From the NCBI RefSeq assembly GCF_014284155.1, contig NZ_JACOFZ010000004.1:124001-188000 (forward strand): a DNA stretch of 64,000 nt, read 5' to 3'. The position numbers and the translations under genes are program-made. Under the pieces are notes generated by a model. The model searched no databases. It was not told where the DNA came from and saw nothing but the letters and a program-made list of their open reading frames with translations. Of the stretch, positions 8,241 to 45,940 are shown in pieces (the first letter of the stretch is position 1; the number at the start of each line of letters is the position of its first letter). The stretch is from Affinundibacterium nitidum (lineage in GTDB: Bacteria > Pseudomonadota > Gammaproteobacteria > Burkholderiales > Burkholderiaceae_D).

Positions 8241-8345
8241 GAGCATATCCGCTTGCAGTTTTGCATCAGAAACAGAAAGGTGTGAGACACAGTTGGTAAC
8301 TAATTCGACGTTCTCATAATAACGATTCAAGAAAAGAGAAGATTT

Positions 8346-17789: not shown

Positions 17790-18473
17790 ATGAGTTTTGC
17801 GACTTGGTTTTCATTTTTCTGTGCGGCTTGTTTGATTGCGGTTTCGCCTGGCTCAGGAGCTATCCTTTCTATGTCGCATGGCCTCGCCTATGGTGTGAAA
17901 CGGGCGAGTGTCACTATCTTCGGTCTACAATTGGGCTTGTTATTAGTACTGATCATTGCTGGCGCAGGTGTTGGATCGCTATTGTTAGCCTCTGAGTCTG
18001 CGTTTTCTATCGTAAAGATACTTGGGGCAACTTACCTTATTTATTTGGGGGCTCAGCAATTCATCGCAAAAAGCAAACTTGGCAGCGGTCAGGTAGAAGG
18101 GCAAGCAGATGTTCAAACGGCTTCTCCAAGTGCGCCACAAGTCGTGCTAACGCCGCATGCTTCTAGACAGATTTTGACTGGCTTTTTGACGAATGCCAGC
18201 AATCCTAAGGGGATCGTTTTCATGGTTGCTGTGTTGCCCAATTTTATTAATCCGCAATTCGCCATCGTGCCTCAGTTAGGTATTCTTGCAATCACCATGG
18301 TGCTAGTTGATACAACTGTAATGCATGGATATGCTTTTTTAGCATCGTCTTTGCAAGTATGGATGCGTCACCCCAAGGCTGAACGTATTCAAAATAGGGT
18401 ATTTGGGACGGTTTTAATGATGGTGGGTGCTAGTTTGTTTTTTGTTAAGCGTGAAGCCAGTATTGTTGTTTAG
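17790..18473 (+). CDS. LysE/RhtB family amino-acid exporter
   Basis: An inner-membrane translocator of 227 aa with about six hydrophobic segments. The N-terminal family motif is present (CLIAVSPGSGAILSMSHGLAYG), as is the mid-protein GFLTNASNPKG motif. Such proteins export amino acids such as lysine, homoserine or threonine. There is a threonine aldolase a few kilobases away, but no direct link. A hydrophilic loop around residues 95-125 is longer than usual. Confidence 0.9.
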   Translation: MSFATWFSFFCAACLIAVSPGSGAILSMSHGLAYGVKRASVTIFGLQLGLLLVLIIAGAGVGSLLLASESAFSIVKILGATYLIYLGAQQFIAKSKLGSGQVEGQADVQTASPSAPQVVLTPHASRQILTGFLTNASNPKGIVFMVAVLPNFINPQFAIVPQLGILAITMVLVDTTVMHGYAFLASSLQVWMRHPKAERIQNRVFGTVLMMVGASLFFVKREASIVV

Positions 18474-25607: not shown

Positions 25608-27308
<1,701 letters not shown>

Positions 27309-27401
27309 TCAAAACAGAGAGCGTTCGATTACAAAAAAATTTGTTTTGAGTAAGGTATGAGTAAGCGTAGCGAGCGCCTGAAGTTTGGATCGAGAAGCGC
27401 A

Positions 27402-27419
27402 ATCGTACGAAGGTACGAT
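27402..27419 (-). other. RNA hairpin in the groES-groEL spacer
   Basis: A perfect 7-bp inverted repeat (ATCGTAC / GTACGAT) surrounds a GAAG loop, which is CUUC in the mRNA. It lies between the two chaperonin genes. It could be a processing or stability element that sets their relative levels; there is no T-run, so it is not a normal terminator. Confidence 0.45.
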
Positions 27420-27466
27420 GAGCATCACAGATTCAAAATTCAGCCGCGCAGTAGCTTAATCATTCC

Positions 27467-27757
27467 TTACTTTTGGACGATTGCGAAAATATCTTCTTCA
27501 CGCATCACCAATACTTCATTGCCGTCAACTTTGACAGCTTGGCCAGAATATTTGCCGAACAACACGCGGTCGCCCACTTTAACTTCCAAAGCGCGCACAG
27601 AACCGTTTTCCAATACTTTGCCGTTACCTACAGCCAGTACTTCACCTTGATCTGGTTTCTCTGCTGCTGCGTCAGGCAAAACGATACCGGATGCTGTTTT
27701 TGTTTCTTGATCCAAACGTTTAACGATAATGCGATCGTGCAGGGGACGAAGATTCAT
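27467..27757 (-). CDS. groES: 10-kDa co-chaperonin GroES
   Basis: The 96-aa lid subunit of the chaperonin. It starts [18 protein letters not shown], has a mobile loop around [15 protein letters not shown], and contains [17 protein letters not shown] precedes the ATG. It is the first gene of the operon and lies about 160 bases downstream of a CIRCE-controlled promoter. Confidence 0.98.
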
Positions 27758-27919
27758 ACTAACTCCTAAAAAAATTACAAAAGTAAAAATACCAAAGTAA
27801 AGCGACGTGAGATGCTTGTGATGCCTTGCTACTTGTTTCCAAGAAGCACCGCTAACATAAGCGCCAGCACATCCAAATTTGTTGCTAGAGATAAATGCAG
27901 AAGTGTTTAAAAAACATTG

Positions 27920-27974
27920 TTAGCACTCTCTCTCGCTGAGTGCTAATTATATGGGCGGGGTAGGGCTTTTTCAA
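27920..27974 (-). promoter_or_regulatory. groES-groEL sigma70 promoter with CIRCE operator
   Basis: On the minus strand, TTGAAA (27974-27969) and TATAAT (27951-27946) are 17 bp apart. The TATAAT touches a perfect CIRCE element at 27920-27946, TTAGCACTC-N9-GAGTGCTAA. CIRCE is the binding site of the HrcA heat-shock repressor, so the operon is predicted to be HrcA-repressed and driven by the housekeeping sigma factor. The remaining 5' leader down to groES is unstructured as far as I can see. Confidence 0.95.
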
Positions 27975-28107
27975 GGAAGAAAGTGGAAAAAAGCAGTTTT
28001 ATTTTAAAAATCAGGGAGTTAGCGATGATTTGAGGCTTGTTTTTGATGGTGGATGGGTACACTCCTGCAATGTCTGCATTGAAACCCGCTAACATCTTGG
28101 TCAAGGC

Positions 28108-28602
28108 TTGGTGCATTATTTGACATGTTATGCTCGCGGTCGGCTGCTACATGATGGTCAGATTCGGCTCACGCATCAGCATGTCAATTTTACTTACACA
28201 CCGCATGGTGATAGCGCTACTTCGTATCGCTCGGTTTGCCCGGCTCACACGCCGGAACGTTTTCTGAAACTGGTGTTGCAACTCGTACCCGAACCAGGCA
28301 AACACACGGTGCGCAGTTTCGGTTTGTACGCGCCGCGTAAAACAGCACGATTGAATTTGGTACGCACCGTGTTCCGTCAAGCGCCCATCACCAAGATTGA
28401 ACCATTGACTTGGCAAACGCATTACGCGAAACACGTCACCCAACCCACTGCGCATGTTTGTACTTTGTGTGGTGCGACTATCGGCCATGTCCGTAACATC
28501 GCTCCGCATCATGATCCACCACGACCGCGCCTACATGAAGATCGTCATGTGCAGCGCGACGGCTGCGTGTCTACCTCAATATTCTCGACTTCGTTTCCAT
28601 AA
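28108..28602 (+). pseudogene. C-terminal remnant of an IS91-type (Y2) transposase
   Basis: The 164-residue frame matches only the later part of an IS91/IS801-like rolling-circle transposase: HYLTCYARG, HVNFTYTPHGD, the PERFLKLVLQLVPEPGKHTVRSFGLY core (paraphrased; this is the usual 'mL..HvLP..fh.iRhyGl' region) and a final CTLCGATI zinc-like pair. A stop codon lies in frame just upstream (28090), and the N-terminal part with the catalytic tyrosines is absent. The element is dead. It sits directly upstream of the integron cassette array. Confidence 0.7.
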
Positions 28603-28660
28603 TCCTTCTGATTTTAAAGATAAATCAGATTGCTTCCTTTTCTGATAACTCTTAAAATCT

Positions 28661-28755
28661 CCATAACTAATTTACAACCAGCTGTAGACGCGCCGTGCAA
28701 CAAAGCATTGGTAGCGGACACCGCTACGCGGTTTCGCACAACTAAAACGTTAAAC
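28661..28755 (+). repeat. Upstream attC-like site (degenerate)
   Basis: The right end GTTAAAC (28749-28755) fits the GTTRRRY core and is the exact reverse complement of the R'' of the next site. A CCATAAC heptamer at 28661 could be its R''. The interior contains a strong 7-bp hairpin (GTAGCGG ACA CCGCTAC). The arms pair poorly, so the left half may be eroded. Confidence 0.5.
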
Positions 28756-28759
28756 ATTC

Positions 28760-29314
28760 ATGCTTCCTATCGGCTACCTTTACAAGAACGTCGCTAAACG
28801 TCCAGACTGGCTTGATGTGGAAACAGTTGATGACATTTACGCCCTTAGTGGCTGCGTGTCTGAGGACTTCGCCGATTACACCAACTATTGGCGACATAAC
28901 GGTTTTTGGTTGTTTGATTCGCCTTCAATCATGAAGGAACTAGCGAATGAGCATTCGATTGATCTTAGTGCGCTTTGCCTTTTTTATTATGAGGCGTACG
29001 AAGTCCAATATAATGATGAGACGAATTTGTGGGAACAATTTTTTCCAGAAGCCTCATTTGTAACCAATATTCAGCCACCGAAAAATAATAGGTTGGAAGG
29101 GTTTGATGTCGTGAATTTTTGCTCCGGCACATCACCTGAATGCTCCCCACTTTCTTGTAATTCCATTGCTAAAACGATTCCAACAAATCGTCACTGTCTT
29201 TTTGATACATTTGAAGAAGCGAAGAGTGCTATAGAGAACAGTGCATTTGAAAATGCAGAGCCTGGCCCTTATAGAATTATCGCTGTGTACACCATTAATG
29301 AACTCCATGTTTAA
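28760..29314 (+). CDS. Cassette 1 protein, uncharacterised
   Basis: An unrecognised 184-aa protein. The ATG lies 4 bases after the upstream attC core, as is usual in cassettes. It is predicted to be soluble and acidic, with many aromatic residues (FADYTNYWRHNGFWLFDSPS, FYYEAYEVQYND) and six cysteines, mostly toward the C-terminal half. No membrane segment or known catalytic motif is visible. Its stop codon lies inside the R'' box of its attC, a compact arrangement typical of cassettes. Confidence 0.75.
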   Translation: MLPIGYLYKNVAKRPDWLDVETVDDIYALSGCVSEDFADYTNYWRHNGFWLFDSPSIMKELANEHSIDLSALCLFYYEAYEVQYNDETNLWEQFFPEASFVTNIQPPKNNRLEGFDVVNFCSGTSPECSPLSCNSIAKTIPTNRHCLFDTFEEAKSAIENSAFENAEPGPYRIIAVYTINELHV

Positions 29315-29431
29315 CATTACGCTCAAATCGGAAACTGCGCATTTGGTAGTTTCACCGTTCAGCACTTTATCAATCATTCGCTCTACGGTTTGTGTGCATC
29401 GTGCGCAGTTCCGGATAGCTGAACGTTATGG
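29309..29431 (+). repeat. attC site of cassette 1
   Basis: R'' is GTTTAAC (29309-29315) and R' is GTTATGG (29425-29431). The arms pair well: ATCGGAAACTGCGCA on the left matches TGCGCAGTTCCGGAT on the right with one mismatch. GTTTAAC is the exact reverse complement of the GTTAAAC that opens this cassette. The length is 123 nt. Confidence 0.85.
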
Positions 29432-29459
29432 ATCATTAATACGCCCGACCATCGCAACC

Positions 29460-29909
29460 TTGCTCACCTTGATTTGCATCGCAATTTCACTGCCAACTTT
29501 CGCGGGGGAAGGAAAATTTAATGGTACGTGGTCTATTGATCTTCGTTCAAAAGAAGAACAAAAGCGTGGCGTCGAATGTGGGTTGGCCACATTCTCACTT
29601 GTACAGACAGGAAATAAAATTACTGGAAATCACGTTTTATCAACAGCAGGCTGTGGACGCCTAAATGAAGGTGGTGACAGAACTGTTAAAGGCGTGATCG
29701 TTGAAAAAACGGCAGTGCTTGTTGTCACGAGTGGACGTAATGGAGCAATTGTCATGGGAACAGCTACAGTAAATGGAAACGCCCTATTCTGGGAAACAGT
29801 ACACGAAATTAAACAGGGCGAGCCAGAGGGAGACTCTCCGCTAATTTTAGTGAAGGGAAGACTCACCCGAGAGAAATTACATGAAAATCATCCAAAACAT
29901 GACTTTTGA
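29460..29909 (+). CDS. Cassette 2 protein, secreted, uncharacterised
   Basis: The mature part looks like a small secreted beta-rich protein (GKFNGTWSIDLRS, then FSLVQTGNKITGNHVLS and GAIVMGTATVNGNALFWE), in the style of lipocalin-like or CHASE-like cassette proteins; the function is unknown. A signal peptide ends near SLPTFA. No ATG or GTG in frame lies between the cassette boundary and the signal peptide. TTG at 29460 is the only standard start, though an ATA at 29439 would give a better n-region. An ATG at 29241 lies inside cassette 1, so it cannot be the native start. Confidence 0.65.
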   Translation: MLTLICIAISLPTFAGEGKFNGTWSIDLRSKEEQKRGVECGLATFSLVQTGNKITGNHVLSTAGCGRLNEGGDRTVKGVIVEKTAVLVVTSGRNGAIVMGTATVNGNALFWETVHEIKQGEPEGDSPLILVKGRLTREKLHENHPKHDF

Positions 29910-29981
29910 AAATGACGCGCGAATATGTGTTTTCTTAAAAATTGTTGATTGGCGCGCGCGCCTTTCAAATCAGCGTTATGC
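29892..29981 (+). repeat. attC site of cassette 2
   Basis: A 90-nt site. R'' is CCAAAAC (29892-29898), one base off the reverse complement of the GTTATGG opening the cassette; R' is GTTATGC (29975-29981). The arms include TTTTGAAAATGACGCGCG on the left and GCGCGCGCCTTTCAAA on the right, which are largely complementary. Confidence 0.85.
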
Positions 29982-29997
29982 TAGGGAATGAGTGACG

Positions 29998-30372
29998 ATG
30001 AAGGCGCAGCAATACAAGGATTTTATTGATCAGATGGTTGACGTATGCCGCAACGGGCAGGGCGCAATTGGGTCAACTCGCGTTCGAAATGGAGTTTGGA
30101 ATGAAAACGCAAGAGCCGACTTTCTCGAAGACCAATTTCAAATAAATCAGTTGTTGGGCATACTCAATGACGAGCAAAGAGAAGTGATAGCAGGCATGCT
30201 CGCTCAAGCATTTGAGAGCGGTGTGTTTGAGACGTTGAAGGCACTAGAGGAATTCGAGATTGAACCGTTTCTTGAAGGCTACGAAGGCAGCCCATACCAC
30301 GATTTCATCGGACGGGTAGCGACGGTTCAATGGCAATGGCCCGACGACGATGAAAATGAAAAACCGGCATAA
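29998..30372 (+). CDS. Cassette 3 protein, uncharacterised acidic
   Basis: An unrecognised 124-aa soluble protein. It appears all-alpha in its first two thirds (YKDFIDQMVDVCRNG, FQINQLLGILNDEQREVIAG) and ends in an acidic tail (WPDDDENEKPA). AGGGA lies about 10 bases before the ATG at 29998; a GTG two codons earlier is also possible. The stop codon overlaps the R'' box of its attC. Confidence 0.75.
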   Translation: MKAQQYKDFIDQMVDVCRNGQGAIGSTRVRNGVWNENARADFLEDQFQINQLLGILNDEQREVIAGMLAQAFESGVFETLKALEEFEIEPFLEGYEGSPYHDFIGRVATVQWQWPDDDENEKPA

Positions 30373-30456
30373 CATGGCATTGGTTCAGGACGCGCGGATG
30401 AGTGCTTTTCTAAATTTTACATTTTGGCGTGCTCGCCTCACAATTCAACGTTAGCA
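30367..30456 (+). repeat. attC site of cassette 3
   Basis: A 90-nt site. R'' GCATAAC (30367-30373) is the exact reverse complement of the GTTATGC at the start of this cassette. R' is GTTAGCA (30450-30456). The right arm ends CACAATTCAACGTTA, nearly the same as in the next site. Confidence 0.88.
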
Positions 30457-30465
30457 GTCAAAAGT

Positions 30466-30825
30466 ATGCGTAAAATTGCTTCGCTCAGGAATCCAATTTT
30501 AGGGTGCGTCCGTTGTATCTTGTACTCGGGTGCTGACGGTGTTTATGTATTTCCATGTGCGACTGATGAAGACGGTTCAGCAACAGGGGATTATTGGTTT
30601 GAGTCGATTGAAGACGCCGAAAAATTTTGCAAAGATGAGTACGGTATCAACGGTGTCGATTGGAAAGATGTGTCAGATCCATTGCCCGGATGCCAGCATG
30701 ATTGGTTGATGCCCGTTCGAGTAAAAGGACGTGAAGAAGGGCATCCTGATTGGAGCACGTTCGAGCGATTGGAAGATGGGAAATGGATTTCGTTTAGCGC
30801 AAACCAAGAGAACAATGCCGAATGA
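30466..30825 (+). CDS. Cassette 4 protein, uncharacterised
   Basis: A 119-aa soluble protein of unknown function with an apparent alpha/beta layout (GADGVYVFPCATDEDGSATG, WFESIEDAEKFCKDEYGI) and a conserved-looking C-terminal block (GCQHDWLMPVRVKGRE). The ATG at 30466, 10 bases after the attC core, is the native start. The frame extends upstream to a TTG at 30424, but that lies inside the attC site. Confidence 0.78.
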   Translation: MRKIASLRNPILGCVRCILYSGADGVYVFPCATDEDGSATGDYWFESIEDAEKFCKDEYGINGVDWKDVSDPLPGCQHDWLMPVRVKGREEGHPDWSTFERLEDGKWISFSANQENNAE

Positions 30826-30826
30826 C

Positions 30827-30916
30827 TGCTAACATTACATTCGTGCCGGACGCACGGCGAGATCTTCAGTCACATTTTTCCAAATGGCGCGTGCGCCGTA
30901 CAATTCAACGTTAAGT
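30827..30916 (+). repeat. attC site of cassette 4
   Basis: A 90-nt site. R'' TGCTAAC (30827-30833) is the exact reverse complement of the GTTAGCA that opens the cassette, and R' is GTTAAGT (30910-30916), a perfect GTTRRRY. The arms pair through CCGGACGCACG on the left and CGTGCGCCG on the right with an extrahelical A, as expected of attC hairpins. Confidence 0.9.
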
Positions 30917-30919
30917 TCT

Positions 30920-31288
30920 ATGCGTACTCTTCTCGCTGTGTTGAGTTTTATAGCGTTGCTCGGATGTACAGAACAAGCATCTACCAACACGCCTCTCCCG
31001 TCAAATGCTACATCCGAGTCTTTTGACGACATGCTGAGGCCTGAAGATCCACACTTTTCCGCTGAGGAGCGACGTATTGTTTTGCGCGTGCAAGCCTACC
31101 TTGAGAAGAACACACAAAAGTCGGTCGATGCACGTTACAGAGTTAAGCGGACGAACGAGGGCTTTGAAGTATTTGCTATATTTATCCGCGGCTACTCAAA
31201 TGGCCGTCCTTTAACTTCCCCCGGCGGTCACGTTACAGTTATTTTGCATTCAGATGGCAATGTTATTCGTTACATACTAGGAGAGTGA
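30920..31288 (+). CDS. Cassette 5 lipoprotein, uncharacterised
   Basis: A 122-aa lipoprotein. The signal sequence ends in LLGC, followed by a polar Thr/Ser/Pro spacer. The C-terminal domain (VQAYLEKNTQKSVDARYRVKRT, FEVFAIFIRGYSNGRP, HVTVILHSDGNVI) looks like a small alpha/beta fold. The ATG at 30920 is only 4 bases from the attC core. The target membrane and function are unknown. Confidence 0.8.
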   Translation: MRTLLAVLSFIALLGCTEQASTNTPLPSNATSESFDDMLRPEDPHFSAEERRIVLRVQAYLEKNTQKSVDARYRVKRTNEGFEVFAIFIRGYSNGRPLTSPGGHVTVILHSDGNVIRYILGE

Positions 31289-31300
31289 GGCGATGGCCGA

Positions 31301-31390
31301 ACTTGACATTACGTTCGAGGATGAAGTCGTGATATTGTTTTGTTTTCGTATGAGCGGCGTTGTGTGGCTCACCTCAATTCAGCGTTAAGG
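31301..31390 (+). repeat. attC site of cassette 5
   Basis: A 90-nt site. R'' is ACTTGAC (31301-31307), one base off the reverse complement of the GTTAAGT opening the cassette and with the AAC core changed to GAC; R' is GTTAAGG (31384-31390). The core change may lower its recombination activity. Confidence 0.78.
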
Positions 31391-31400
31391 ATCAAATCAA

Positions 31401-31661
31401 ATGAGACCACTAGAGCGAATCGATGAAATTTCCGATCTCATTAAAGAGATTTGGAATGAGAACCCAGATATGAGGTACATGCAGCTACTCTACACATTGC
31501 AATCGAGCGTTTCTCAGAAAAATATGGATGTTGGAAAAGTAGAAGAACGCGTGGATAAAACCTACTCAAGAATAGGATTTGATTTGTTTAATATCGAGGA
31601 TAAAGAGTTTAAAATTTTCCTTGAGAACTATCTATTTGAACAAAGAGAACGTAATGCTTAA
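31401..31661 (+). CDS. Cassette 6 protein, small, possibly YihD/DUF1040-like
   Basis: An 86-aa soluble protein, AT-rich in codon use. The N-terminus (RIDEISDLIKEIWNENPDMRYMQLLYTLQ) resembles the helix-turn-helix-like start of the YihD/DUF1040 family of small proteins, but this is a tentative reading. The ATG at 31401 is 10 bases after the attC core. No ribosome site stronger than GGAT is present. Confidence 0.7.
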   Translation: MRPLERIDEISDLIKEIWNENPDMRYMQLLYTLQSSVSQKNMDVGKVEERVDKTYSRIGFDLFNIEDKEFKIFLENYLFEQRERNA

Positions 31662-31745
31662 CAGGTCAATCGAAGGAGAATCGCCCATGACTATTACACT
31701 TAAATTTGTGACCGTCATGGTGATCTCGTCAGCTCGGCGTTAACG
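31656..31745 (+). repeat. attC site of cassette 6
   Basis: A 90-nt site. R'' GCTTAAC (31656-31662) has one mismatch to the reverse complement of GTTAAGG; R' is GTTAACG (31739-31745). The inner arms pair through CATGAC on the left and GTCATG on the right. Confidence 0.82.
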
Positions 31746-31759
31746 CTCAGTCACAAACC

Positions 31760-32050
31760 ATGGAGGAATCATTGAATGAAAAAGAAACTTCGGACAATAG
31801 TGGCCGCATCGGTGTGGGAAATTTCTTAATATTGGCAATTGCCTTTGCGGCTTTTGGTGCGCTATTGTATTGGTCTTGGAATTTTGTTGGACCAAGTGGC
31901 CAGACATTTGAGATTGGTCCTTTCATCCTCTTCTGGCTCCGAGAAATTCTTCTATTCGGTATCGTTGGAATAGTCTTAATTTGCGCCGCCATTTTATGGT
32001 TTTCGCGGTTTATTCGGAGGTTGTTAGCGAAGGACGAAAATGAGCTTTAA
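31760..32050 (+). CDS. Cassette 7 protein, two-helix membrane protein
   Basis: A 96-aa protein with two predicted membrane helices (FLILAIAFAAFGALLYWSW and ILLFGIVGIVLICAAILWF) joined by a short periplasmic loop and ending in a basic/acidic tail. It is unrecognised. Its small size and two helices recall holin-like or immunity-type cassette products, but nothing specific supports either. The start is 15 bases after the attC core, and the stop overlaps the next R''. Confidence 0.75.
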   Translation: MEESLNEKETSDNSGRIGVGNFLILAIAFAAFGALLYWSWNFVGPSGQTFEIGPFILFWLREILLFGIVGIVLICAAILWFSRFIRRLLAKDENEL

Positions 32051-32137
32051 CAAGACGGTCGTCTGGGAATCGACAGTTATGGTTTCTATCTTTATTCATT
32101 TTTTGGTGTTGGCGACCGCGATACCTCAGCGTATGAC
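32045..32137 (+). repeat. attC-like site of cassette 7 (degenerate right core)
   Basis: A 93-nt site. R'' CTTTAAC (32045-32051) differs by one base from the reverse complement of GTTAACG. The right core reads GTATGAC (32131-32137) instead of GTT, and arm pairing is weaker, so this site is probably decaying. Confidence 0.6.
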
Positions 32138-32161
32138 TACGCATGTGAACGGAGGATGCGT

Positions 32162-33208
32162 TTGAAAAATAGAAAAATTACACAGCTAATTATAAAAATT
32201 ATTCTGCCGATTATTTCCATTGTCTGCCTCATTGTTTTCGTGCCTTGGCTAGCAGGCTCTGCTTACTTAAAGCCGTTACCGAACTCGGTACAAGAGCAAG
32301 TCAGTGATGCCATCAATTACAAATTGGATGGCATCATCGTCTATGTAGAAAAAAAGGGAAAAGCACCTGAGTTATATTCGTCTGGATGGAAAAATAGAGA
32401 AGATAAAATTCCTGCAGACCCACATTCGCTATTTAAAATTGCCAGTATCAGCAAGTTGTATATTGCTGCGGCCGCTGCGAAATTAGTCGAGAGAAAAAAA
32501 CTCTCTCTGGATAAAACCCTCGCGGACTACTTGCCCGAGCTTATTGGTCGAGTTGAAAATGCAGATAAGATTACTTTGCGAATGCTGCTACAGCATCGAA
32601 GTGGAATTCCTAATTTCATTGATGACCCAAAATTTCCTTGGGCGAATTTGCCAACAGAACCGAATGAACTTCTCAAGTTCGCACTGGATAAGCCTGCTGA
32701 TTTTAAACCAGACAAAAGCTACGGCTACTCTAATACAAATTATCTGTTGATCGGCACTATTTTAGATAAGACTTTGGGGTACAGTCATCACGCCTATATA
32801 AAAAAGGAAATTCTTGAGCCGCTGAAGTTAACACACACGTTTAGTCTACTTAACGAAGTAGATATGAAAGAGCTTGTCAGTGGCTATTACATCGGATATG
32901 ACGGGGATTTGAAAACACAAAATTATGTAAGTCCGGGTGGCTCAATGCTTGCAACAGCACAAGATGTCGGAATTTTCTTGCGCGCCCTGAATGATGGCTC
33001 ATTATTAAACGCCAATGAACAAGCGATTTACTCTTCAATTTATGTGTACGAACATACTGGCTTATTAGGAGGCTATTCTAGTATTGCGCGATACCACAAA
33101 GATATTGATACGGTTGTTATTCAATTCGTCAATACAAGTGGAGGAAGCTCGTGGATGATTTCCGAAATTATCTATAACCGTATAGTGAGAATACTTCACA
33201 AGCAATAG
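32162..33208 (+). CDS. Cassette 8 membrane-anchored beta-lactamase-related serine hydrolase
   Basis: A class C beta-lactamase/D-Ala-D-Ala carboxypeptidase family protein of about 348 aa, anchored by an N-terminal helix (IIKIILPIISIVCLIVFVPWL) and facing the periplasm. The catalytic SxxK is SISK (in LFKIASISKLYIAA), the second motif is the YSN of YGYSNTNYLLIG, and HTGLLGG is in the place of the third motif. The start is TTG at 32162: GGAGG lies 6 bases before it and abuts the ATG at 32156, which is therefore unlikely. It may act on peptidoglycan, esters or peptides; beta-lactam hydrolysis cannot be claimed from sequence. Confidence 0.85.
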   Translation: MKNRKITQLIIKIILPIISIVCLIVFVPWLAGSAYLKPLPNSVQEQVSDAINYKLDGIIVYVEKKGKAPELYSSGWKNREDKIPADPHSLFKIASISKLYIAAAAAKLVERKKLSLDKTLADYLPELIGRVENADKITLRMLLQHRSGIPNFIDDPKFPWANLPTEPNELLKFALDKPADFKPDKSYGYSNTNYLLIGTILDKTLGYSHHAYIKKEILEPLKLTHTFSLLNEVDMKELVSGYYIGYDGDLKTQNYVSPGGSMLATAQDVGIFLRALNDGSLLNANEQAIYSSIYVYEHTGLLGGYSSIARYHKDIDTVVIQFVNTSGGSSWMISEIIYNRIVRILHKQ

Positions 33209-33221
33209 TAATTTGAATAAT

Positions 33222-33355
33222 GCTCAACAAGTCGTTGCAGCAACAGTCGCTGAGCTACTAGGGGAATTTTTTGAGTCGCGGTTTTATGGTTTTGCTGCGT
33301 AAAAACTTTCCACAAAATCACAACTTAAAATTTGCCGCTGAACTCGGCGTTTGCC
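33222..33355 (+). repeat. Terminal attC-like site of cassette 8
   Basis: R'' GCTCAAC (33222-33228) fits RYYYAAC, and the right end CTCGGCGTTTGCC resembles the 3' ends of the other sites, with R' GTTTGCC at 33349-33355. GTTGCAGC on the left and GCTGAAC on the right can pair with one bulge. The length of 134 nt is at the upper end for attC. A matching GGCAAAC is not found downstream, so the array seems to end here. Confidence 0.5.
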
Positions 33356-33432: not shown

Positions 33433-33762
33433 ATGAAAACACCACTTAACCCCGACGAAAAAATCATCAAACAAGGCGCTGCTAATCTTCAGAAGAATAT
33501 TGAAACTGTCGGCGGTAAATTGTATTTGACGAATCAACGCTTAATCTTTGAAGCGCACAGTATCAATATTCAAGGTGGAACCAGCGAGATTGCGTTGTCG
33601 AACGTTCAGTCGCTGCGACCATGTTGGACGAAGTTTTTGGGGCTAATTCCTTTGCTCCCCAACTCGTTAGCGGTCTACAACAAACAAGGTGAAGAATATC
33701 GTTTTGTCTTGTTTGGGCGTCACGCTTGGGCTGCCGCAATCGATGCGCAGAGAGTGCAGTGA
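33433..33762 (+). CDS. GRAM-domain protein
   Basis: A 109-aa cytoplasmic protein with a bacterial GRAM/PH-like domain: LNPDEKIIKQGAANLQ, then GGKLYLTNQRLIFEAHS and the turn before LPNSLAVYNKQGEEYRFVLF. Such domains bind membranes or proteins; the role is unknown. The frame is open from 33271, but that part crosses the attC-like site, so the ATG at 33433 is preferred. It may be the last, incomplete cassette (no R'' follows) or the first gene beyond the array. Confidence 0.7.
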   Translation: MKTPLNPDEKIIKQGAANLQKNIETVGGKLYLTNQRLIFEAHSINIQGGTSEIALSNVQSLRPCWTKFLGLIPLLPNSLAVYNKQGEEYRFVLFGRHAWAAAIDAQRVQ

Positions 33763-34339: not shown

Positions 34340-34726
34340 ATGAAACGTGTAACAGGTATAGGCGGCATTTTCTTTCACGCTAAAGATCCTAAGGCATTGT
34401 GCGCTTGGTATAAAACGCATTTAGGCATTGACGTGCAAGAGTGGGGCGGCGCAGCATTTAGTTGGACCGACGATAGTGGTACGCCCGTTGGTGGTACGAC
34501 GATTTGGTCGATTGGGGCAAATACCAGCGATCATTTCGCACCAAGCACGTCTCCATTCATGATTAACTATCGCGTCGCTGATCTCCATGCCTTGGTCAAG
34601 GTGTTGAAAGAAGAGGGCTGCCAGGTATTGGAAAAGATCGATGAATCTGAATACGGTAAATTTGCTTGGGTGATTGACCCTGAAGGCAATAAAGTCGAAT
34701 TGTGGGAACCACCTGCGGGCCAATAG
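34340..34726 (+). CDS. VOC family (glyoxalase/bleomycin-resistance fold) protein
   Basis: A 128-aa protein of the vicinal-oxygen-chelate superfamily: first beta-alpha-beta unit GIGGIFFHAKDPKALCAWYKTHLGI, second unit NYRVADLHALVKVLKEEGC, and the terminal metal-ligand glutamate in GNKVELWEPP. AGGAG precedes the ATG. Members range from dioxygenases to lyases; the substrate is not predictable here. Confidence 0.88.
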   Translation: MKRVTGIGGIFFHAKDPKALCAWYKTHLGIDVQEWGGAAFSWTDDSGTPVGGTTIWSIGANTSDHFAPSTSPFMINYRVADLHALVKVLKEEGCQVLEKIDESEYGKFAWVIDPEGNKVELWEPPAGQ

Positions 34727-45572: not shown

Positions 45573-45601
45573 TTGTTCTTACTCTCTCATCGCGGTAGAA
45601 T
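45573..45601 (+). promoter_or_regulatory. Predicted sigma70 promoter of the cobalamin operon
   Basis: TTGTTC (45573-45578) and TAGAAT (45596-45601) are 17 bp apart. Transcription from here would start at about 45608, right at the first base of the cobalamin riboswitch. Confidence 0.6.
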
Positions 45602-45609
45602 AGCGAAGT

Positions 45610-45805
45610 TTTGGTGCTCGCCGACATAGTCATGTTGGCGGTTAAACGGGAAACATAGAGCGAATTTATTTGCTTAAGTGTGCTGCCCCCGCAACGGTGA
45701 ACAAGCGCAAGAAGTTCTTCTTGCCAGCCATCCTTCAATACCACTGTGCTGTATGCATGGGAAGGTCAGATGGTGATGCTTGTCAGCCCGGATACCGGCC
45801 AAAAT
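45610..45805 (+). promoter_or_regulatory. Cobalamin (AdoCbl) riboswitch
   Basis: The 5' leader of the btuB operon carries the conserved landmarks in order: GGTGCTCGCC, AAACGGGAAAC, GCTGCCCCCGCAACGGT, and the B12 box GTCAGCCCGGATACCGGCC. It should turn off expression when coenzyme B12 binds. A further hairpin CGAAC-N6-GTTCG at about 45819-45834 follows and may belong to the expression platform. Confidence 0.95.
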
Positions 45806-45940
45806 AAGTGAAGTGCCGCGAACGGGGATGTTCGAGTGTGTGCCAGTTTTCTGCTGCATTGCTTTTTCCTTTTCCGCATTTTGTATTCAAGCACCCAACG
45901 GGGATCTCGGTTGCTTGTGACTTATTTATTCAAAGTGTGT

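Follow-up and report, generated by a model that had tools for sequence, protein, structure and literature searches.

A gene cassette array near groES in Undibacterium as the probable tail of a chromosomal integron that lost its head

How does an array of gene cassettes come to stand on a bacterial chromosome with no integrase beside it? The question is raised by positions 28749-33355 of the window, by which we mean the whole stretch of 64,000 nucleotides analysed here (G000:C43:124001-188000), taken from a 4.38-Mb draft genome in 80 contigs (99.69% complete). Eight open reading frames (ORFs) on the + strand (184, ~150-160, 124, 119, 122, 86, 96 and 350 aa) lie there between sites resembling attC, the recombination sites of integron cassettes. 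An earlier interpretation made from the letters alone, here called the sequence-only reading, had described the locus as a CALIN (cluster of attC sites lacking integron integrases) of a betaproteobacterium. The host is indeed a betaproteobacterium, of the genus Undibacterium (Oxalobacteraceae), and is placed in Undibacterium because an exact attI pattern was found in 13 stretches of an 84,980-genome collection (own genome possibly excluded), all of them from Undibacterium or Oxalobacteraceae. Comparison across 44 Undibacterium genomes, the window's own among them (species names attached to genome handles such as G003 and G012 are inferred), very probably identifies the array as the cassettes left over from a chromosomal integron resident in the genus, whose head was lost next to groES by a deletion of ~1.9 kb.

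The array itself is confirmed as a genuine integron cassette array. Rfam at its gathering threshold yielded no attC match in the whole window (the sole match is a cobalamin riboswitch), and attC models were therefore built during the analysis. R1 was trained on sites of the window and of a second array on contig C22 of the same genome, whereas R3 draws exclusively on other genomes, with 48 sites that had been chosen by R1. Applied to the whole window, R3 recovers seven attC sites, six at E 1.9e-12 to 4.5e-6 (beginning at 31655, 30366, 29891, 31300, 30827 and 32044) and one at E 0.041 (29308), with no further match at E<=1. The alternation of eight same-strand genes with attC-like sites reported in the sequence-only reading is thus recovered at seven sites by the kind of covariance-model search it had proposed. 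Its heptamer counts were reproduced as well: on comparison of each opening heptamer with its own R'', three of eight pairs are exact and four have one mismatch, while the last cassette has four. Chance had already been dismissed from the letters; the true pairing, with 48 of 56 identities, is the unique best among 40,320 permutations (mean 36.5) and again ranks first (1/40,320) when the four variable bases alone are counted (26/32). Furthermore, in a 13-pair R/L-box structure laid over 18 sites (6 from the window, 12 from contig C22), 79.3% of cells are paired and covariation reaches 0.335, against 0.169 (sd 0.026) in shuffled sites, with 0/500 shuffles as high and at most 0.168 for slid structures. 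The bare pattern GTTRRRY...GTTRRRY was set aside as uninformative, because its 104 and 134 matches were outnumbered by those of the reversed control (220 and 276).

What is absent beside the array is present at the same place in relatives. DNA upstream of groES occurs in 42/44 genomes of the genus, and an integrase (IntI) scoring over the cut-off of the TIGR02249 family (265 bits), our criterion for an integron integrase, occurs in 12/44, one of which (G036) has internal stops. In 7/44 genomes a full-length intI adjoins the match to the groES-upstream region, at a distance from its end of 65 bp in G039, 76 in G003 (U. baiyunense) and G007 (U. fentianense), 79 in G020, 88 in G019 (U. seohonense), 289 in G012 (U. 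macrobrachii) and 1,067 bp in G006. A truncated intI lies 110 bp from the match in G008 (U. flavidum), and in G001, which has no IntI over cut-off, attC sites are found from 2.7 kb beyond it. The nearest relative at this locus, G039, shows the order groES-intI-attI-IS91-like cassette, the cassette starting with GTTGCAC. Its IntI is intact (337 aa; NCBIfam 510 bits against a cut-off of 435 and 464 against 265), and between intI and attI lies a box that we take to be LexA-like.

Two breakpoints separate the window from this arrangement (Table 1). Positions 26001-28025 are 96.8% identical to contig C2 of G039 over 2,029 bp, and the match stops at 28025. After the scar, which has no stretch longer than 9 bases in common with G039:C2 or the insertion sequence (IS), the window resumes at 28066 inside the IS91-like element, from element base 766. 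Relative to G039, about 1.18 kb of the head and 0.76 kb of the element are missing, about 1.9 kb in all. The window has no attI-A match at E<=0.01 and nothing that matches the G039 attI. To the right of the array, seven genes have homologues in one neighbourhood of the complete genome G006, at least 16 kb beyond its intI. The adjoining GRAM-domain gene (33433-33762) proved unsuitable as a synteny marker, being present in 1/44 genomes, its own.

Table 1. Coordinates of the groES locus and cassette array in the window
Feature	Position	Strand	Observations
groES, integron anchor gene	27467..27757	-	NCBIfam GroES 2.2e-50; 94.8-100% aa identity in syntenic stretches examined
groES upstream region	27758..28025	.	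matches G039 as far as a point just ahead of the G039 intI
Probable deletion scar, 40 bp	28026..28065	.	intI, attI and 5' part of IS91-like cassette absent
IS91-like transposase (Y2_Tnp) cassette remnant	28066..28555	+	86.7% identical to intact C11 element (L042); Pfam Y2_Tnp 2e-07
IS91-like cassette 3' end, eroded attC-like hairpin	28611..28755	+	95% to L042 over 28611-28733; R1 11.7 bits at 28694-28756
Cassette 1	28749..29424	+	ORF 28760-29314, 184 aa; GTTAAAC/GTTTAAC exact
attC, end of cassette 1	29308..29432	+	R3 18.5 bits, E 0.041; similar ~120-bp stretches in 6/9 relatives searched
Cassette 2	29425..29974	+	ORF open to 29909; GTTATGG/CCAAAAC, one mismatch; no family match
attC, end of cassette 2	29891..29982	+	R3 E 6.8e-11
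Cassette 3	29975..30449	+	ORF 29998-30372, DUF6547 (Pfam 8.5e-14); GTTATGC/GCATAAC exact
attC, end of cassette 3	30366..30457	+	R3 E 4.8e-11
Cassette 4	30450..30909	+	ORF 30466-30825, no family match; GTTAGCA/TGCTAAC exact
attC, end of cassette 4	30827..30917	+	R3 E 2.5e-8
Cassette 5	30910..31383	+	ORF 30920-31288, lipoprotein-like by eye; GTTAAGT/ACTTGAC, one mismatch
attC, end of cassette 5	31300..31391	+	R3 E 1.4e-10
Cassette 6	31384..31738	+	ORF 31401-31661; GTTAAGG/GCTTAAC, one mismatch; Pfam DUF1040 0.00054, below cut-off
attC, end of cassette 6	31655..31746	+	R3 E 1.9e-12
Cassette 7	31739..32130	+	ORF 31760-32050, small membrane protein by eye; GTTAACG/CTTTAAC, one mismatch; weak Pfam matches only
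attC, end of cassette 7	32044..32138	+	R3 E 4.5e-6
Cassette 8	32131..33348	+	ORF 32156-33208, serine hydrolase, beta-lactamase/AmpH family; Pfam PF00144 5.1e-49
Putative last attC	33221..33355	+	R''/L''/L'/R' by eye; 5.8 bits; resembles weak attC in G012:C4

The element at the left end deserves attention, as it appears to be a transposase gene in cassette form. The intact element encodes 391 aa with the domains PF04986 (Y2_Tnp, 1.1e-45) and PF14319 (Zn_Tnp_IS91, 5.4e-26; copy in stretch L042), and the window remnant is 92% identical to copies in L038. Intact copies stand behind attI, one on contig C11 and two in tandem on C32, both places being headed by an attI unit of ~140 bp with the sequence TGTTAACTTCGGTTTCTTTCACTTTAAAACAA|GTT. 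All five copies with a visible start begin with GTTGCAC, across four upstream contexts: the attI-A unit, the attC-like end of the element itself and, in G039, two differing sequences adjacent to intI. At the intact ends, GTGCAAC lies within an attC-like hairpin; R1 scores three such ends at 20.2, 18.4 and 14.6 bits, and R3 reports a single one of them at E<=0.1, with 20.5 bits. For the reading of this element as a cassette, the evidence from the boundaries is the stronger and the model support for the hairpin modest. Members of the IS91 family presumably have ori/ter ends of their own and a GAAC/CAAG target; CAAG precedes the element at two attI-A copies, and not at the tandem junction or at the two G039 copies. 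The idea of a left end in the 42 bases preceding the element was dropped, because that sequence also adjoins intI and stands in front of other cassettes. In four genomes (L052, L053, L054, L055) the final ~150-180 bases of the element, hairpin included, precede similar ~338-aa genes, and the one gene of this group that was scanned is an alpha/beta hydrolase.

Elsewhere in the window's own genome no IntI exceeds the TIGR02249 cut-off, and seven partial matches are found. Two pairs of these are Xer-like, with similar matches in most genomes of the genus among those listed, and one pair is a 281-aa tyrosine recombinase on C11 (best model NF040815, 201.5 bits, cut-off 220), accompanied by an IS91-family transposase in an element directly behind an attI unit. 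A further match is an N-terminal intI remnant of ~61 aa with a stop on C22, directly upstream of the second array of about 13 cassettes (L016 18388 to L017 about 4970, G000:C22). The attI of that array (L016) is too diverged to be among the matches of R2, an attI model trained on 25 attI copies that it later recovers. Unrelated sequence interrupts the last attC of the C22 array. Inverted copies of one sequence, noted by eye, flank the array (L016 about 17810-17900, L017 about 8270-8335), which looks as if it had lain in a larger mobile element. The C11 attI unit and the two-gene IS91-type element with this recombinase occupy positions 4919-7430 of L041; the element starts GTTGAAC, a start also seen behind attI in L173, L183 and L188. 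On C65 three attC matches lie just behind a Xer-like gene on the opposite strand (L039 6101-8926).

Cassettes are shared between these arrays. According to tblastn, copies of cassette 5 occur at 96.7% identity on C22 and 95.1% on C65, both in the own genome, and at 90.2% in L098 of U. macrobrachii, and a copy of cassette 6 lies in the C22 array (90.7% aa). Because cassette 5 (window, C22, C65) and cassette 6 (window, C22) have other neighbours in each array, cassettes must have moved between arrays while an integrase was active. These observations bear directly on the notion of an ordinary operon with intergenic repeats, for which the short genes on the same strand might speak and to which we give almost no credence: the attC structure covaries, the heptamers pair, cassettes 5 and 6 have other neighbours in other arrays of the genome, and a homologue of cassette 8, 94% identical, lies in another array contig of G039 (G039:C185). 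The sequence-only reading had named conservation of the gene order in distant relatives as the sign of such an operon, and the window order occurs as a unit in none of nine relatives searched.

One-ended rolling-circle transposition has been proposed for ISCR elements, and the IS91-like element, which has cassettes immediately after it in the window, L038, L042 and G039:C57, could have mobilised them to this place in the same manner. This is very unlikely, given that the fixed GTTGCAC start and the GTGCAAC in the attC-like end are the signature of a cassette and that synteny already accounts for the locus. Cassettes are also reportedly inserted at non-classical sites (attG), according to work of Loot and co-workers from 2024, and an IntI acting in trans may have assembled an independent CALIN here, in a lineage that never had an integron at this position. 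Insertion in trans at attG is published (Loot et al., 2024, as cited in the available parts of PMC12444791 and PMC11023631), and attC matches without attI or IntI over cut-off are scattered in other Undibacterium genomes, among them the single-contig genomes G014 (14 attC matches) and G016 (8), which have no IntI over cut-off and no attI match and in which the sites are widely spaced among the matches listed. This account is nevertheless improbable, since intI stands at groES in 7/44 genomes and the left end of the array is a half-deleted first-position cassette instead of a G|TT junction with chromosomal DNA.

Several observations weigh against the array as described or against its reading as the tail of a resident integron. 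As to the sites, R/L-box pairs changed on both sides number 8, not above shuffles (157/500). The first site listed in the sequence-only reading (28661-28755) turned out to be no ordinary cassette site: the IS91-like cassette ends there in eroded form (11.7 bits, E 0.12, R1 with filters off). The last (33221-33355) scores 5.8 bits over part of the site only. This last site is 81% identical over 125 bases to a stretch of the groES array of U. macrobrachii (G012:C4; L083 6082-6216), itself a weak attC by R1 (20.4 bits, E 0.04). As to the locus, G006 has the right-hand genes at 34340 and 35395 the other way round, and no other compared stretch gave a match to any right-hand gene. No window cassette gene was found at the groES locus of the nine relatives searched. 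The own genome is an 80-contig draft in which a gap could hide an intact intI, and an IntI-like recombinase that might act on att sites stands behind an attI unit on C11, at 169 bits against the TIGR02249 cut-off of 265. The G039 assembly comes from a metagenome, and its contig breaks off within the IS, placing the continuation into cassettes beyond its reach. The IS91-like cassette also occurs behind other attI sites, so that its presence at both loci, though suggestive of one shared insertion, is no proof of it.

On balance, the origin in a resident integron is strongly favoured over a separate CALIN, because relatives have both intI and attI beside groES at this locus. The original order would have been groES, intI on the reverse strand, attI, the IS91-like transposase cassette and then ordinary cassettes. 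A loss of ~1.9 kb, probably a single deletion, would have taken intI and attI together with the front half of the IS91-like cassette, with the 40-bp scar remaining, and left the cassettes with neither attI nor an integrase in cis. The array is now presumably frozen and mostly silent. Promoter and terminator scans were no better than shuffles (11 vs 11.1 and 5 vs 5.0) and are uninformative as to expression. With seven clustered attC sites, where at least two are needed, and no TIGR02249 match on contig C43, the window array is a CALIN by definition, which upholds the original label in the sense of IntegronFinder; it has no adjacent intI and no attI beside its first cassette, and its attC-bearing cassettes stand at a conserved position, groES being the anchor common to intI-bearing relatives. 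By history it is a decapitated groES-locus integron and not the separate integrase-less store first imagined. Likewise, the absence of an integrase from view holds at the locus, whereas the truncated intI with its own array on C22 had been missed. A search of the flanks for integrase and attI, and a comparison of related strains for gain or loss of cassettes, had both been suggested: neither intI nor attI is present at the window locus, both are present at the same locus in relatives, and the comparison of relatives yielded intI beside groES in 7/44 genomes and, in the nine searched for them, none of the window cassette genes at that locus.

Although attI is usually regarded as one site in cis with its integrase, the attI unit is found at many places in the genus with no intI beside it. 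At E<=0.001 its model has matches in 22/44 genomes and is without a match in the remaining 22. Between intI and the first cassette the unit is present in G012 and G020, where IntI is full, and in G008 and G019:C84, where intI is truncated, so the orphan sequence is also the one that occupies this place in complete integrons. We compiled 58 sites from 51 loci in 14 genomes, weaker matches being considered only as far as these loci reach: four have intI upstream (two full, two truncated), two have an IS91-type recombinase downstream, and 52/58 have no intI-like sequence within up to 3 kb per side (contigs are sometimes shorter, the shortest upstream stretch being 277 bases). Six units lie in the own genome. 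Conservation between different groups of sites extends to about -140, with background beyond, and a LexA-like palindrome is present in part of the copies. A candidate attI of the G039 type behind gcvP (L043) rests on 29 bases (E 0.004).

Cassettes appear to be joined exactly at the G|TT of orphan attI cores. After exclusion of 3/58 sites without a recognisable core, 36/55 had GTT[AG] and enough downstream sequence for a heptamer test, and 19 of these 36 have, further downstream, an R'' complementary to the first heptamer (17/34 without the two intI-headed sites), against a mean of 3.5 and a maximum of 9 in 1,000 shuffles. Against such joining speak the 17/36 sites lacking R'' and the strict GTTRRRY, which follows the core in only 20/55. 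Single-linkage grouping on upstream similarity yields groups with common upstream genes, comprising 10 sites in 6 genomes, 5 in 5, and 4 in 4 behind glmS; the group of ten includes two sites each from four genomes and so is not one orthologous position. Three groups were compared by neighbourhood (3, 4 and 5 genomes; ORFs of at least 110 aa only). At locus B, G003 and G007 have both flanks in common with no ORF of at least 110 aa between them. At locus C, five genomes have a left gene with 97.7-99.7% identity, and a right-hand gene is common to G001, G012 and G007; of the intervening cassettes, some are in common and others differ. At the glmS place the left side, the only one covered by the comparison, is in common. 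Some attI units thus occupy positions common to several species, with different first cassettes. In U. flavidum (G008:C92; L179, L189, L216), seven successive attI matches with cassettes between them lie within about 20 kb.

The simplest reading of these sequences is that IntI served orphan attI units in trans. Undibacterium integrons may then be distributed machines, in which one IntI would act in trans on many orphan attI docks at positions common to species, such as behind glmS, giving several cassette entry points per genome, while IS91-family elements would have adopted the cassette format and often come first behind docks; in the own genome, the integrases would be gone and docks and arrays fossils. 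The evidence tips slightly in favour of this wider proposal.

For cassettes 1, 2, 4, 5, 6 and 7 of the window array, searches with PADLOC, PHROGs and NCBIfam returned weak matches at best, and the ORF of cassette 1 has no Pfam, NCBIfam or PHROG match and a PADLOC value of 0.027 only. In the ORF of cassette 2, judged by eye, the TTG at 29460 is likely to be the start codon and the N-terminus resembles a signal peptide. Cassette 8, whose heptamer fit is poor, is far under the cut-off of the NCBIfam beta-lactamase models among the best 25 of 49 matches, with 72 bits against 415 for class C. Outside the array, the cobalamin riboswitch lies at 45595-45817 on the + strand (74.8 bits).

Among known systems, CALINs are defined as at least two attC sites without a nearby integrase and have been proposed to be degraded integrons, 2,961 having been counted in one set (IntegronFinder 2.0, available part of PMC9024848). 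The window resembles them in having several attC sites and no integrase nearby, and differs in that its degradation is readable, with the head present in relatives, the breakpoint placed within about 40 bases and a half-deleted mobile-element cassette in first position. Relatives that keep intI at this locus, together with the placed breakpoint, allow the transition from integron to CALIN to be traced. The chromosomal integron at ilvD in Xanthomonas likewise represents an ancestral locus with progressive loss, having a conserved anchor gene, integrase loss in some lineages and extra cassette clusters elsewhere (PMC12444791, in its available part). The Undibacterium anchor is groES instead, and the extra arrays often start with attI copies, which the available text of PMC12444791 does not describe.

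Attachment sites heading arrays at many positions, several common to species with different cassettes, would make the unit of capture a network and not one platform, and the origin of new integron loci would become directly testable. A literature search, outside of which most subscription papers fell, found no account of orphan attI docks, and among the papers found for Undibacterium with integron neither word stood in title or abstract. The closest parallel is offered by the delta-attI-type cassettes of class 1 and 2 integrons, in which pieces of attI replace the 3' attC of a cassette within one array (available part of PMC12901181). In both cases attI lies away from intI, recombining there in those cassettes and presumably also in Undibacterium, with the core AAACAAAGTT in those cassettes and AAACAAGTT in Undibacterium, the latter being the delta-attI1 core given in that part of the source less one base; unlike them, the Undibacterium attI units of ~140 bp head separate arrays at many chromosomal places. 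The IS91-like element, finally, resembles the IS91 family in its Y2_Tnp and Zn_Tnp_IS91 domains, whereas its boundaries are those of a gene cassette, with GTTGCAC joined at attI on one side and the attC-like GTGCAAC hairpin on the other, so that a transposase gene with such boundaries possibly links cassette capture and transposition.

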